This document shows, one piece after another, positions 1 to 7,250 of a stretch of DNA of 7,878 nt. The notes under the pieces were generated by a model, which worked only from the letters and a program-made list of their open reading frames with translations, made no database searches and was not told where the DNA came from. The first letter of the stretch is position 1; each line of letters starts with the position of its first letter. Source of the stretch: an uncultured Oscillospiraceae bacterium (lineage in GTDB: Bacteria > Bacillota > Clostridia > Oscillospirales > Oscillospiraceae); assembly GCA_934597125.1 (NCBI GenBank), contig CAKTQM010000061.1, forward strand, positions 1 to 7,878. Reading direction: 5' to 3'. The position numbers and the translations under genes were made by a program.

Positions 1-6
1 GAATAT

Positions 7-83
7 CCGGGTGTGGCGAAGTTTGGTATCGCGCTTGAATGGGGTTCAAGAGGCCTTGAGTTCGAATCTCAACACTCGGACCA
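7..83 (+). tRNA. tRNA-Pro (anticodon GGG), CCA encoded
   Basis: The full cloverleaf can be drawn. The acceptor strands CCGGGTG and CACTCGG pair with one G-U. The D stem is GCGA/TCGC with a GG-containing loop. The anticodon stem is CTTGA/TCAAG around the loop ATGGGGT, which gives anticodon GGG after T33 and G at position 37, as usual for proline tRNAs. The T arm is TTGAG, TTCGAAT, CTCAA, followed by A73 and an encoded CCA. It should read CCC and CCU codons. Only six bases precede it, so its promoter or any upstream tRNA partner lies outside the window. A terminator follows directly. The last 32 bases are repeated twice more downstream (200-231, 348-379). Confidence 0.97.
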
Positions 84-199
84 AAGAAGCATCTTCAGTA
101 ATGAGGGTGCTTCTTTTTTTGTTCCTAAGTGTCGAGAACTCATGGCCTCTTGCATTAAAATACACGGCCATAGGCCGTGACGCCGCAAAGCGGCGGGAC
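52..199 (+). repeat. Tandem 148-base repeat, copy 1 (starts inside tRNA-Pro)
   Basis: The unit starts at G52 in the variable region of the real tRNA. It contains the tRNA 3' end (52-83), the terminator (84-120), a spacer (121-162) and a hairpin segment (163-199). Copy 2 at 200-347 appears identical base for base. The unit holds no credible protein gene. Open frames running through it simply repeat with the period. Confidence 0.97.
84..120 (+). terminator. Rho-independent terminator of tRNA-Pro (array copy 1)
   Basis: The stem GAAGCATC (86-93) pairs with GGTGCTTC (106-113), including one G-U, and is followed by seven T (114-120). It begins one base after the tRNA CCA, so the primary transcript is probably short. 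Confidence 0.88.
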
Positions 200-203
200 G
201 GCC
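163..203 (+). repeat. Alternative hairpin segment in repeat copy 1
   Basis: CACGGCC (163-169), loop ATA, GGCCGTG (173-179) is a perfect 7-bp hairpin. CGCCGC (181-186), AAA, GCGGCG (190-195) is a perfect 6-bp hairpin. GGCCGT (173-178) can instead pair with ACGGCC (198-203), closing an outer stem around the second hairpin. GGCCGT therefore has two competing partners, and ACGGCC reaches into the next tRNA fragment. The same segment recurs at 311-351. Pairing was read by eye. Confidence 0.75.
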
Positions 204-231
204 TTGAGTTCGAATCTCAACACTCGGACCA
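200..231 (+). pseudogene. tRNA-Pro 3' fragment, copy 2
   Basis: This is an exact copy of the last 32 bases of the tRNA at 7-83: part of the variable region, the whole T arm, the 3' acceptor strand, A73 and CCA. The 5' half, including the anticodon, is missing and replaced by the hairpin segment ending at 199. It cannot be a working tRNA, although an intact T arm and CCA end might be recognised by tRNA-processing enzymes. Confidence 0.93.
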
Positions 232-268
232 AAGAAGCATCTTCAGTAATGAGGGTGCTTCTTTTTTT
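232..268 (+). terminator. Terminator in array copy 2
   Basis: Exact copy of 84-120: GAAGCATC (234-241) pairs with GGTGCTTC (254-261), followed by seven T. Any transcript reading past the first terminator meets a second identical one. Confidence 0.85.
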
Positions 269-347
269 GTTCCTAAGTGTCGAGAACTCATGGCCTCTTG
301 CATTAAAATACACGGCCATAGGCCGTGACGCCGCAAAGCGGCGGGAC

Positions 348-379
348 GGCCTTGAGTTCGAATCTCAACACTCGGACCA
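348..379 (+). pseudogene. tRNA-Pro 3' fragment, copy 3
   Basis: Third exact 32-base copy of the T arm, 3' acceptor strand and CCA of the tRNA-Pro at 7-83, again without the 5' half or anticodon. Confidence 0.92.
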
Positions 380-403
380 AAGAAGCATCTTCAGTAATGA
401 GGG
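348..403 (+). repeat. Tandem 148-base repeat, truncated copy 3
   Basis: Identity to the unit starts at 348 and holds to GAGGG at 399-403. Base 404 is G where the other copies have T, three bases are then missing in the T-rich tail, and similarity fades by about 414. The array therefore has about 2.4 units. Confidence 0.93.
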
Positions 404-413
404 GGCTTTTTTT
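380..413 (+). terminator. Altered terminator in array copy 3
   Basis: The left arm AAAGAAGC (379-386) is kept, but the right arm is changed to GGGGGC followed by seven T. Only a weaker A/T-rich stem (AGAAGC with GCTTTT, partly G-U) remains before the T run. It may still terminate, but less well than copies 1 and 2. Confidence 0.45.
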
Positions 414-452
414 GCGTTTTTACGGGAATTACGGAAATTATAGAAAAAGTGC

Positions 453-481
453 TGGACAATACCGGAAAAATATGGCATACT
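453..481 (+). promoter_or_regulatory. Probable promoter of the DUF6273-like gene
   Basis: The -35 TGGACA (453-458) and -10 CATACT (476-481) are separated by 17 bases, and a TG pair at 473-474 gives an extended -10. The start would lie near 488, giving a leader of about 90 bases that contains both palindromes at 498-542. Confidence 0.5.
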
Positions 482-497
482 GGGAAAAGAATAGGAC

Positions 498-519
498 GAC
501 GAAGGGATATCCCTTCGTC
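498..519. repeat. Perfect 22-base palindrome in gene leader
   Basis: The half-site GACGAAGGGAT (498-508) is followed directly by its reverse complement (509-519). It lies just after the predicted transcription start. It could be a dimeric repressor operator, an RNA hairpin, or part of a dispersed palindromic repeat. It lacks a T tract and so is not a standard terminator. Confidence 0.8.
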
Positions 520-541
520 ACGTTTATCTCGATAAACGTGA
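518..541. repeat. Second inverted repeat, abutting the first
   Basis: TCACGTTTATC (518-528), TC, GATAAACGTGA (531-541): an 11-bp inverted repeat sharing two bases with the preceding palindrome. It ends 24 bases before the ribosome binding site of the gene at 579, so it could also influence translation as RNA. Confidence 0.8.
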
Positions 542-578
542 TTTCCTTTGAAAACATAAAAAGATAGGGGAGACTTTT

Positions 579-2024
579 ATGAAACGATTGCTTTCTCTTT
601 TGCTGCCGCTTTTGGCGGCGTTGACCCTTTGCTCCACCGTTTGGGCAGAGGAAGACACGGCGCCTGCCATCGGCGTCGGCACAGACGGTATTTACGGCGC
701 CCATGGCAGTAATCTCTATCTGGGCAACTGGAAGAGCTATCCCATCCTGTGGTGGGTGCTGTCTACCAACGGCAGCGGCGGTACCTATACCGACGCCCAG
801 GGCCAGCCCGTCGCACAGGAGGACGCCATTTTCCTCCTGACGGCAAATCTCATTGAAACGGGTGCGCTGGACAACACAAGGGTACAGCCCGGTGATCCTT
901 TTGTATTTGATTATCTGAAGTTTTCCTCCCGCAACGAGTGGTGCCCTCAATTTTTCAGCGATACCTTTAACGCGGGTGAGCAGCTGGCGATCCTGAACAC
1001 ATCAAAAGCCAAGGATGGCGCGGTAGTATTGGTCGAGTCAACCGGTCTGCTGCTGACAAAGGAGAAGTCGCCGGCGCTGGAGAATGACAAGGTGTTCATC
1101 CCCTCTGCGGAAGAACTCTGCACCGAGGCCTACGGCTTTGCTGCTGCACCCGTTGCACAGGACAGAAAGCGGGATGCGATTCCCTTTGATAAGGAATATG
1201 CGAGGATGTACTTTGTGCGTTCGGAATTGAATTATGAGACACAGGGAGGCATGATGGGCTGCATTTTGGAAAACAGCGGCGGGCAGGTGGCTATTGCTCC
1301 GATGGCTTGGTGGCTGCCGGGCTTCAACTATTTCCGTCCCGCGACAAACCTGAACGCGGCGTGCATTGTCCTCAATACCGCGGTGGAGGGCGGCAAGACG
1401 GAGACACAGGGCCTGGCCGCCGTAGCGGCCGACGGGCCGCGGGACGCCGCCCGCAAGCTGACGCTGCTGGATGACAGCCGCAGCAATTTTTCCGTTTCCA
1501 CAGCGACTGTCACCAACGGAACAGCAGTATTCACCTATGAAAACGCCTCTGTTGGCGGAAATGAATATCTCTCCGCGCTGATTTGTGACGGGGAGGGCCG
1601 TGTGCTCTATTATGGATGGCTTGAAGCGCTGACCGACGAGACCGGCACCTCCGGTACGGTGGAACTGGACGTGTCCGGCCTGCCCCTTTCCAACGGGAAT
1701 ACCCTGTATGTGTTCAATGAGCAGTGCAATGGACTTACCTACACCGACTATTCCAGCCCCCTCCGTCCGGTGACACTGAAATACCCGCAGTCGGAGAATT
1801 TGCAGCCGGAGCCCTCAGAGCCAGAGACTCCGCAGCCGGAAGATCCGCGGCCGGAAACCGCAAAATCCAGAAGACTCCCGTCCCAAAACCCGCAGCCGGA
1901 GAATACGGGGGACAATATAGATTCCCCCAAGACCGCGGACGCTGGTATTGCCTGTTATTTTGCTGCGGCAGCCCTTACCTCCCTGTGGGGGGCCGTCTAT
2001 ATCACTACCAATAAGCGCCGCTGA
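579..2024 (+). CDS. Secreted surface protein, DUF6273-like, with PKT-type sorting signal
   Basis: This 481-residue protein starts at ATG 579, six bases after AGGGGAG. Residues 1-23 form a signal peptide (KR, Leu-rich core, cleavage after VWA). Cys18 does not fit a lipobox. Residues about 35-270 resemble DUF6273 modules of Clostridia cell-surface proteins: YPILWWVLS near 54, a block of FLLTAN type near 85, NDKVFIPSAEE near 169 and YGF at 185, then WWLPG near 244. Residues about 300-400 look like a beta-sandwich repeat (YYGWLEAL, LYVFNEQ, TDYSSP). Residues 402-448 are a Pro/Glu-rich, wall-spanning type linker. The end (449-481) is SPKTADAGIA, a hydrophobic stretch, then NKRR, as in sortase substrates. 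Probably anchored outside the cell. Ligand and role are unknown. The DUF assignment comes from memory of the motifs. It is transcribed alone between a promoter and a strong terminator. Confidence 0.85.
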   Translation: MKRLLSLLLPLLAALTLCSTVWAEEDTAPAIGVGTDGIYGAHGSNLYLGNWKSYPILWWVLSTNGSGGTYTDAQGQPVAQEDAIFLLTANLIETGALDNTRVQPGDPFVFDYLKFSSRNEWCPQFFSDTFNAGEQLAILNTSKAKDGAVVLVESTGLLLTKEKSPALENDKVFIPSAEELCTEAYGFAAAPVAQDRKRDAIPFDKEYARMYFVRSELNYETQGGMMGCILENSGGQVAIAPMAWWLPGFNYFRPATNLNAACIVLNTAVEGGKTETQGLAAVAADGPRDAARKLTLLDDSRSNFSVSTATVTNGTAVFTYENASVGGNEYLSALICDGEGRVLYYGWLEALTDETGTSGTVELDVSGLPLSNGNTLYVFNEQCNGLTYTDYSSPLRPVTLKYPQSENLQPEPSEPETPQPEDPRPETAKSRRLPSQNPQPENTGDNIDSPKTADAGIACYFAAAALTSLWGAVYITTNKRR

Positions 2025-6950: not shown

Positions 6951-7250
6951 ATGTGCGACCATAATCACGAACATACCCACGCCGACGGCGTGACACATAC
7001 CCACAGCCACACCCACGACCACGATCATTGCCATGACCATGGGCACGAGCACGCTCACCACTCGCCGGAGGAGGCGCTGGCGCTGCTGGCCTATATGGTG
7101 CAGCACAACCGCCACCATGCCGAGGAGCTGCACGAGCTGGCCCACAGCATGGACGACGAGGCCGCGCAGCTGATCCACGATGCGATCCTGGATTTCAACC
7201 TGGGCAATGAAAAGCTGGATGAGGCGCTGAAGCTGCTGAAGGGGGAATAA
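6951..7250 (+). CDS. His-rich small protein, probable nickel-binding/storage partner of CooT
   Basis: 99 residues from ATG 6951, seven bases after GGGAGGG. Residues 2-37 contain 16 His, mostly alternating with Thr, Asp, Ser or Glu, plus Cys2 and Cys27: a flexible metal-binding tail like those of HypB, SlyD or Hpn. After Met removal the N-terminus would be Cys-Asp-His, an amino-terminal Cu/Ni-binding (ATCUN) arrangement. Residues 38-99 form a predicted helical domain with six further His (QHNRHHAEELHELAH, LIH), ending NEKLDEALKLL. I know no named family for the domain. EHTHADGVTHTH (7-18) nearly repeats EHTHADGTTHTH of the divergent repressor. It is first in a two-gene operon, two bases before the CooT-family gene. 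Likely role: cytoplasmic buffering or delivery of nickel, or another divalent metal. Confidence 0.88.
   Translation: MCDHNHEHTHADGVTHTHSHTHDHDHCHDHGHEHAHHSPEEALALLAYMVQHNRHHAEELHELAHSMDDEAAQLIHDAILDFNLGNEKLDEALKLLKGE

Follow-up and report, generated by a model that had tools for sequence, protein, structure and literature searches.

The window analysed here, a stretch of 7,878 nucleotides from an uncultured Oscillospiraceae bacterium, opens with a tRNA-Pro(GGG) gene followed directly by a tandem array in which the 3′ end of that tRNA recurs (Table 1). An earlier sequence-only reading had described tandem 148-base repeats behind the tRNA, each carrying the tRNA 3′ end, in about 2.4 copies of which the first two are identical, and this was borne out by ARAGORN (tRNA at 7-83) and by TRF, which returned a period of 148 and 2.5 copies over 52-413 (99% matches, score 710). 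The stretch 52-199 is identical to 200-347, with the third stretch (348-413) differing solely at 404 and 409 as assembled. As had also been claimed, the last 32 bases of the tRNA-Pro (52-83) head every copy and each copy has a terminator, this being a terminator-like hairpin with a T run in copies 1 and 2 and a variant terminator in the third; the third, in which both mismatches lie, is absent from the list given by the terminator scan (stems 83-116 and 231-264). The HtpG protein of the window (Hsp90 family, PF00183) is closest to those of uncultured Clostridia and Oscillospiraceae assemblies (best 83%), and in the nearest relative (G001) the tRNA is present and the array absent. Elsewhere in the window a His-rich small protein (6951-7250), a metal-sensitive repressor with a His-rich stretch (PF02583; 6487-6996) and a CooT-like gene (PF10133; 7253-7441) form a neighbourhood that looks metal-related.

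Table 1. Features of the array behind tRNA-Pro(GGG), in window coordinates.
Feature	Position	Strand	Basis and remarks
tRNA-Pro(GGG) gene	7-83	+	ARAGORN; Rfam tRNA 58.5 bits
First tRNA-end copy S1, final 32 bases of tRNA-Pro(GGG)	52-83	+	TRF repeat start
Intrinsic terminator, unit 1	83-121 (stem 83-116 plus T run)	+	Terminator scan and sequence
Inverted tRNA piece S′1	136-152	+	16/17 bases; P1 left arm 136-147 pairs with 200-211 (11/12)
Fork of unit 1, between S′ and S	148-199	+	Hairpins 163-179 and 181-195
Displaced tRNA-Pro 3′ end S2 (T arm, acceptor strand, CCA)	200-231	+	TRF, copy comparison
Terminator, unit 2	231-269 (stem 231-264)	+	Identical to unit 1 terminator
Inverted tRNA piece S′2	284-300	+	Pairs with 348-359
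Fork of unit 2	296-347	+	Identical to 148-199
Displaced tRNA-Pro 3′ end S3, last copy	348-379	+	TRF, copy comparison
Last terminator, variant copy	380-414	+	Differs at 404 and 409

What the sequence-only reading had missed is that part of the tRNA recurs in inverted orientation. The sequence GAACTCATGGCCTCTTG, found 3′ of each terminator, is an inverted piece of the same tRNA-Pro and pairs with the start of the following tRNA-end copy, with GC hairpins enclosed between the two such that the whole takes the form of a forked hairpin. The tRNA-end copy is here called S, the inverted arm S′ and the stretch between S′ and S the fork, the plan of a unit being terminator, inverted tRNA piece (S′), GC-rich fork and tRNA-Pro 3′ end (S). 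The predicted fold of the 148-nt unit has an energy of -70.6 kcal/mol compared with -38.5 ± 3.9 for dinucleotide shuffles (z -8.3, 0/200), and the best predicted fold is only slightly more stable than an alternative three-way junction (-41.2 vs -39.0 kcal/mol). There is no gene in the 116 bp between tRNA-end copies of the window, hence neither an integrase nor a cassette gene, and window positions 52-430 gave no match to phage and plasmid records.

A search for the unit in related genomes, which had been proposed together with the original observation, found units of the same plan and of differing sequence in at least 43 of 400 genomes of the family, behind GGG, TGG and CGG proline tRNAs. Two tRNA-Pro ends at unit spacing were present in 34 of the 400, in each of which at least one unit was inspected, and in 32 once G094 (two full tRNA genes) and G137 (a coding-type repeat) had been dropped from the unit count, with units in 11 further genomes of the same 400 (G070, G296, G305, G004, G067, G074, G124, G148, G157, G253 and G292) found otherwise. 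Among 31 units lying directly behind a full tRNA gene the isoacceptor was GGG in 24, TGG in six and CGG in one, more CGG cases occurring elsewhere in the survey. No tRNA gene was seen 5′ of the unit in G004 and G292, and in G074 (L236, G074:C62:1742) a unit with tRNA-Pro S and S′ stands behind a tRNA-Arg(ACG) gene. The tRNA ends lie 137-188 bp apart in all but one of 49 units, the exception having 224 bp; this narrow size is partly imposed by the search because the main two-end pattern accepts spacings of 122-182 bp only; besides the 224 bp unit, longer ones of 337 and 468 bp exist. In an order-level sample the two-end pattern was found in four of 394 genomes, all four also in the family sample, and since the pattern depends on the acceptor sequence this count does not establish absence outside the family. 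Nine other tRNAs in 80 HtpG loci, a small sample, gave two 14-nt matches downstream. A duplication of another sort is seen in G161, G058, G202 and G094, where two complete tRNA-Pro genes follow one another in tandem at a distance of 160-309 bp. At L127 (G305:C28) the S copy of a unit is split by a palindrome-rich insertion of about 300 bp, which we take to resemble an IS605-type palindromic element.

The inverted arm was examined in 49 distinct units (52 minus those of L121, L171 and L183). An arm scoring at least 8 within 75 nt after the terminator was present in 43 of the 49, compared with one of 37 control loci, these being tRNA-Pro loci without a second tRNA end, and 3% of base shuffles; with the search widened to 150 nt upstream of the copy the arm was found in 46 of 49. 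The arms fit their own S better, with a median of 10 there and of 6 against S copies from units whose T stem differs, where 34% reach 8. In a set of 31 type-A units, 29 of them picked by arm sequence and two added by hand, 344 of 372 cells of P1 were paired, with 33 compensatory, kinship among the units being ignored and the partial choice of the set by arm sequence bearing on these counts. The maxima over 1000 reshuffles of the forward arm were 335 paired and 22 compensatory, such that neither observed value was reached (0/1000), and the number of extra pair types was not raised (764/1000 reshuffles reach it). The RNAalifold consensus of the type-A alignment consists of P1 only. In 41 of 44 segments chosen for having the arm, the window included, two or more hairpins are enclosed by P1, with the inner part folding better than dinucleotide shuffles (z < -2) in 23 of 44. 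The motif AAAT/AATC in the fork loop (window 156-161 and 304-309) recurs across the type-A units and has a weak -10 score in the window.

An empty and a filled site can be compared in G002 and G003, whose flanks agree at 96.9% upstream (320 bp) and 96.7% downstream (1000 bp). The extra sequence in G003 is one 162-bp unit with its own terminator, placed exactly at the tRNA end; the terminator of the inserted unit is unrelated to the old one, which now lies 3′ of the displaced tRNA end. When the terminators flanking a unit were compared, 30 of 46 units had dissimilar ones and 14 of 46 had ones at least 80% identical; a unit thus carries in a terminator of its own or arises by duplication, with the 14 pointing to local duplication in those units. 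Similar units with both flanks unalignable were found in G003/G240 (86% over 125 bp), G201/G285 (83% over 114), G285/G379 (85% over 104), G048/G183 (76% over 115) and G071/G150 (96% over 74), and with the upstream flank alone testable in G142/G379 (93% over 151) and between G205 (GGG) and G296 (TGG; 93% over 72). Some of the best pairs have alignable flanks (G093/G164, G114/G268 and others in part), and intergenic flanks that decay faster than the units may explain the unalignable ones. Two kinds of unit occur in the order E-B in G142 and G379 and B-E in G201 and G285, in which the E unit is degraded or its end damaged; unequal recombination could also produce the two orders.

These observations bear on whether any dedicated recombination is needed. 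Were the units spread by ordinary homologous recombination and replication slippage in a region destabilised by its hairpins, the identity of both window units and the alike terminators would follow, the changes of order would be possible via unequal crossing-over in an E-B-E-B array, and the variable copy number of the E. coli rtT repeats (a unit in 4680 of 5426 genomes, in 1-9 places each, median 2) would also fit. The same processes do not produce the first S′-fork-S unit, nor the unit of G003 with its unrelated terminator exactly at the tRNA end, nor the similar units that stand behind different isoacceptors, each with an arm matching its own tRNA, and they leave the recurrent inverted arms to be explained, so that as a full account they appear unlikely. 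The repeated duplication at a tRNA 3′ end that the sequence-only reading had envisaged holds for the two identical copies of the window and fails for the origin of the unit, against which stand the G002/G003 insertion and the many unlike terminators.

If the folded part acted as RNA, wobble pairs would be expected to be commoner on that strand. In the folded part G-T pairs made up 80 of 1676 on the sense strand compared with 78 of 1685 on the antisense strand, the sense fold being the stabler in 27 of 49 units, whereas in the terminators, taken as a control that is partly compositional because T runs lie on one strand, they made up 62 of 762 compared with 13 of 704, with sense the stabler in 34 of 49. 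The folded part is without RNA-strand bias and the terminators have it. Among the P1 mismatches on the sense strand of type-A units, G-T (19 cells) is somewhat more frequent than A-C (12 cells). A non-coding RNA like that of rtT, in which each unit would give a small RNA that contains the tRNA 3′ half and serves as a decoy or a regulator, has in its favour the annotation of E. coli rttR, which follows the same plan, as a small RNA, together with the strong folding of the window unit and weak promoter-like sites at 132-161 and 280-309 of the window. We consider such an RNA improbable, given that every window unit is preceded by a terminator, that the folded part lacks the wobble bias to the tRNA strand seen in the terminators, that the forks, sorted by eye into kinds, differ strongly in sequence and length and that at eight unit loci no Rfam family other than tRNA was found at gathering score. 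In window positions 1-700 an Rfam scan up to E 1 returned the tRNA and a sub-threshold SpF41 only, with the RtT family unmatched.

The sequence-only reading had also allowed for scars of tRNA-targeted integration, which comes close. One form of this idea, in which the units are all that remains of ordinary tRNA-targeted integrase elements (phages, ICEs) stripped of their genes and reduced to attachment sites, is in keeping with the presence of tyrosine-integrase elements at the same tRNA genes (L132, L133) and of an integrase fragment behind a unit in G347. It is weakened by the inverted arm, which reached a score of 8 at none of nine displaced tRNA-Pro ends of other elements (highest 7) compared with 46 of 49 units, and by the boundary, with seven of the nine starting at the anticodon loop and not at the T arm; both ends were seen in four of these nine elements (L132, L133, L140, L142) and presumed in five, with genes examined in L132 and L133 only. 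Such remnants are accordingly very improbable. The element L133 (G037:C18, 393-4687), which spans 4.3 kb at tRNA-Pro, encodes a tyrosine integrase together with a replication protein that is CRESS-like (PF02407 Viral_Rep, PF00910), and is possibly a single-stranded DNA replicon at the same tRNA. The last of the earlier suggestions, an assembly artefact, does not account for the architecture, given that many independent assemblies contain diverged units built on this plan.

The reading that we favour, with a probability of roughly 0.55, is that the array is a row of mini-cassettes, likely formed by site-specific insertion at the tRNA 3′ end via folded, probably single-stranded DNA, and then likely by tandem duplication. 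Its basis is the anatomy of the units, their recurrence at the proline tRNAs of relatives, one pair of empty and filled sites, similar units with unalignable flanks and the lack of RNA-strand bias. In the proposed mechanism S′ would pair with S in single-stranded DNA and so reproduce the tRNA T arm in double-stranded form, upon which a candidate tyrosine recombinase supplied in trans, either element-borne or host Xer, would swap one strand between the folded site and the tRNA gene, with replication resolving the junction. Such an exchange would leave a single functional tRNA supplied with a new terminator, and behind it S′, the fork and a dead S. Slippage or recombination involving the directly repeated S copies could later raise the number of units. 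Against this reading stand the local duplication indicated where terminators are alike, the capacity of homologous recombination between tRNA-Pro copies to spread units and change their order, the tRNA-Pro unit behind tRNA-Arg in G074 and the scarcity of units in viral contigs. Searched with GAACTCNNGGCCTCTTGCATT or with the type-A S′-S pattern, the viral contigs gave no matches, and the two-end pattern gave three, namely two coding-type repeats and one true unit (L215), the sole one among these contigs, behind a tRNA-Pro on a contig that also has tRNA genes. A generic pattern of inverted and forward T loops gave one match (L251, IMGVR_UViG_3300035548_000196), in which a tRNA 3′-end copy resembling tRNA-Ser has an inverted GGGATTCGAACC about 100 bp upstream, with no tRNA gene within the 6.9 kb examined; judged from its sequence, this copy with the inverted GGGATTCGAACC appears to be an attP-like site. 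Taken together, the observation made in the sequence-only reading is confirmed and its interpretation partly supported.

The unit resembles the folded attachment site of CTXphi. CTXphi attP is described as a pair of att-like sites, oppositely oriented and separated by about 90 bp, which fold in single-stranded DNA into a forked hairpin some 150 bp long; once integrated, CTXphi has one working dif together with the two att copies, now dead, that had made up the hairpin stem (PMC3089051). Inverted att-like sites giving a forked hairpin are thus common to both, whereas the units target tRNA-Pro and not dif and are without phage genes, the single-stranded form and the use of Xer being putative for the units. 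The anatomy of a unit is that of the CTXphi product with tRNA-Pro replacing dif, which favours insertion through a folded strand by a tyrosine recombinase as the probable route. With tRNA-targeted integrative elements the array shares tandem tRNA 3′ ends, a restored tRNA and an own terminator, the window units differing in having no integrase, an inverted arm and a boundary at the T arm.

In integrons a fixed site is followed by cassettes, and at the end of each cassette stand two boxes, the first inverted and the second forward, with a variable hairpin part between them. The likeness to such attI/attC arrays is one of topology only, as the units hold no gene, their boxes are tRNA-derived and no integron integrase was found, with none of 38 relatives' genomes over the cut-off of TIGR02249; none of 14 control genomes was over it either, so that the power of the search is not demonstrated. 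Weaker tyrosine-recombinase matches occurred in 37 of the 38 genomes and in 14 of 14 controls. An integron in the strict sense, with an IntI over the cut-off and a gene cassette with attC, is unsupported.

The E. coli tyrT repeats were described decades ago and, to our knowledge, have no accepted origin. The parallel that the sequence-only reading had drawn with them goes deeper than was claimed, as in the rttR units, too, hairpins are enclosed by an inverted arm and the tRNA-end copy to which that arm is complementary. Three units of 178 bp lie behind E. coli tyrV. Each repeats 19 bases of the tRNA end and contains GGGGAAGGAT, which is exactly complementary to ATCCTTCCCC at the start of that copy; a fourth copy, between tyrT and tyrV, has GGGGAAGGGT. 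Both systems thus consist of a tRNA gene and tandem units ending in the tRNA 3′ end, with an inverted arm and hairpins, E. coli differing in its tRNA-Tyr, its 178-bp unit and 19-nt copy and its annotated small RNA (rttR) and small ORF (tpr). E. coli rtT is transcribed, which counts against the favoured reading. Eighteen of the E. coli rtT places lie on plasmids and not on chromosomes. At the hisR-proM operon of E. coli the last 14 bases of each of its four tRNAs were without a second copy over 2.4 kb. Literature titles and the beginnings of abstracts, with subscription papers mostly beyond reach, held nothing on inverted arms in tRNA-end repeats, and rtT is likened to BIME-family elements in one paper (PMC2965389). 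With a wide family that has the inverted arm, a comparison of empty and filled sites and like units at different isoacceptors, the origin of the tyrT repeats becomes a testable question of recombination. Tentatively, and with less confidence than for the array itself, tRNA genes might serve as an attI-like platform for what are perhaps the smallest known DNA cassettes, gene-less, of about 150 bp and moved via a folded single-strand site made of the T arm of the tRNA itself and its inverted copy, at tRNA-Pro in Clostridia and, as rtT, at tRNA-Tyr in E. coli, independently of integrons. If folded-strand integration at tRNA genes is true, tRNA 3′ ends would gain replaceable terminators, and single-strand cassette recombination would not be confined to integrons and filamentous phages.
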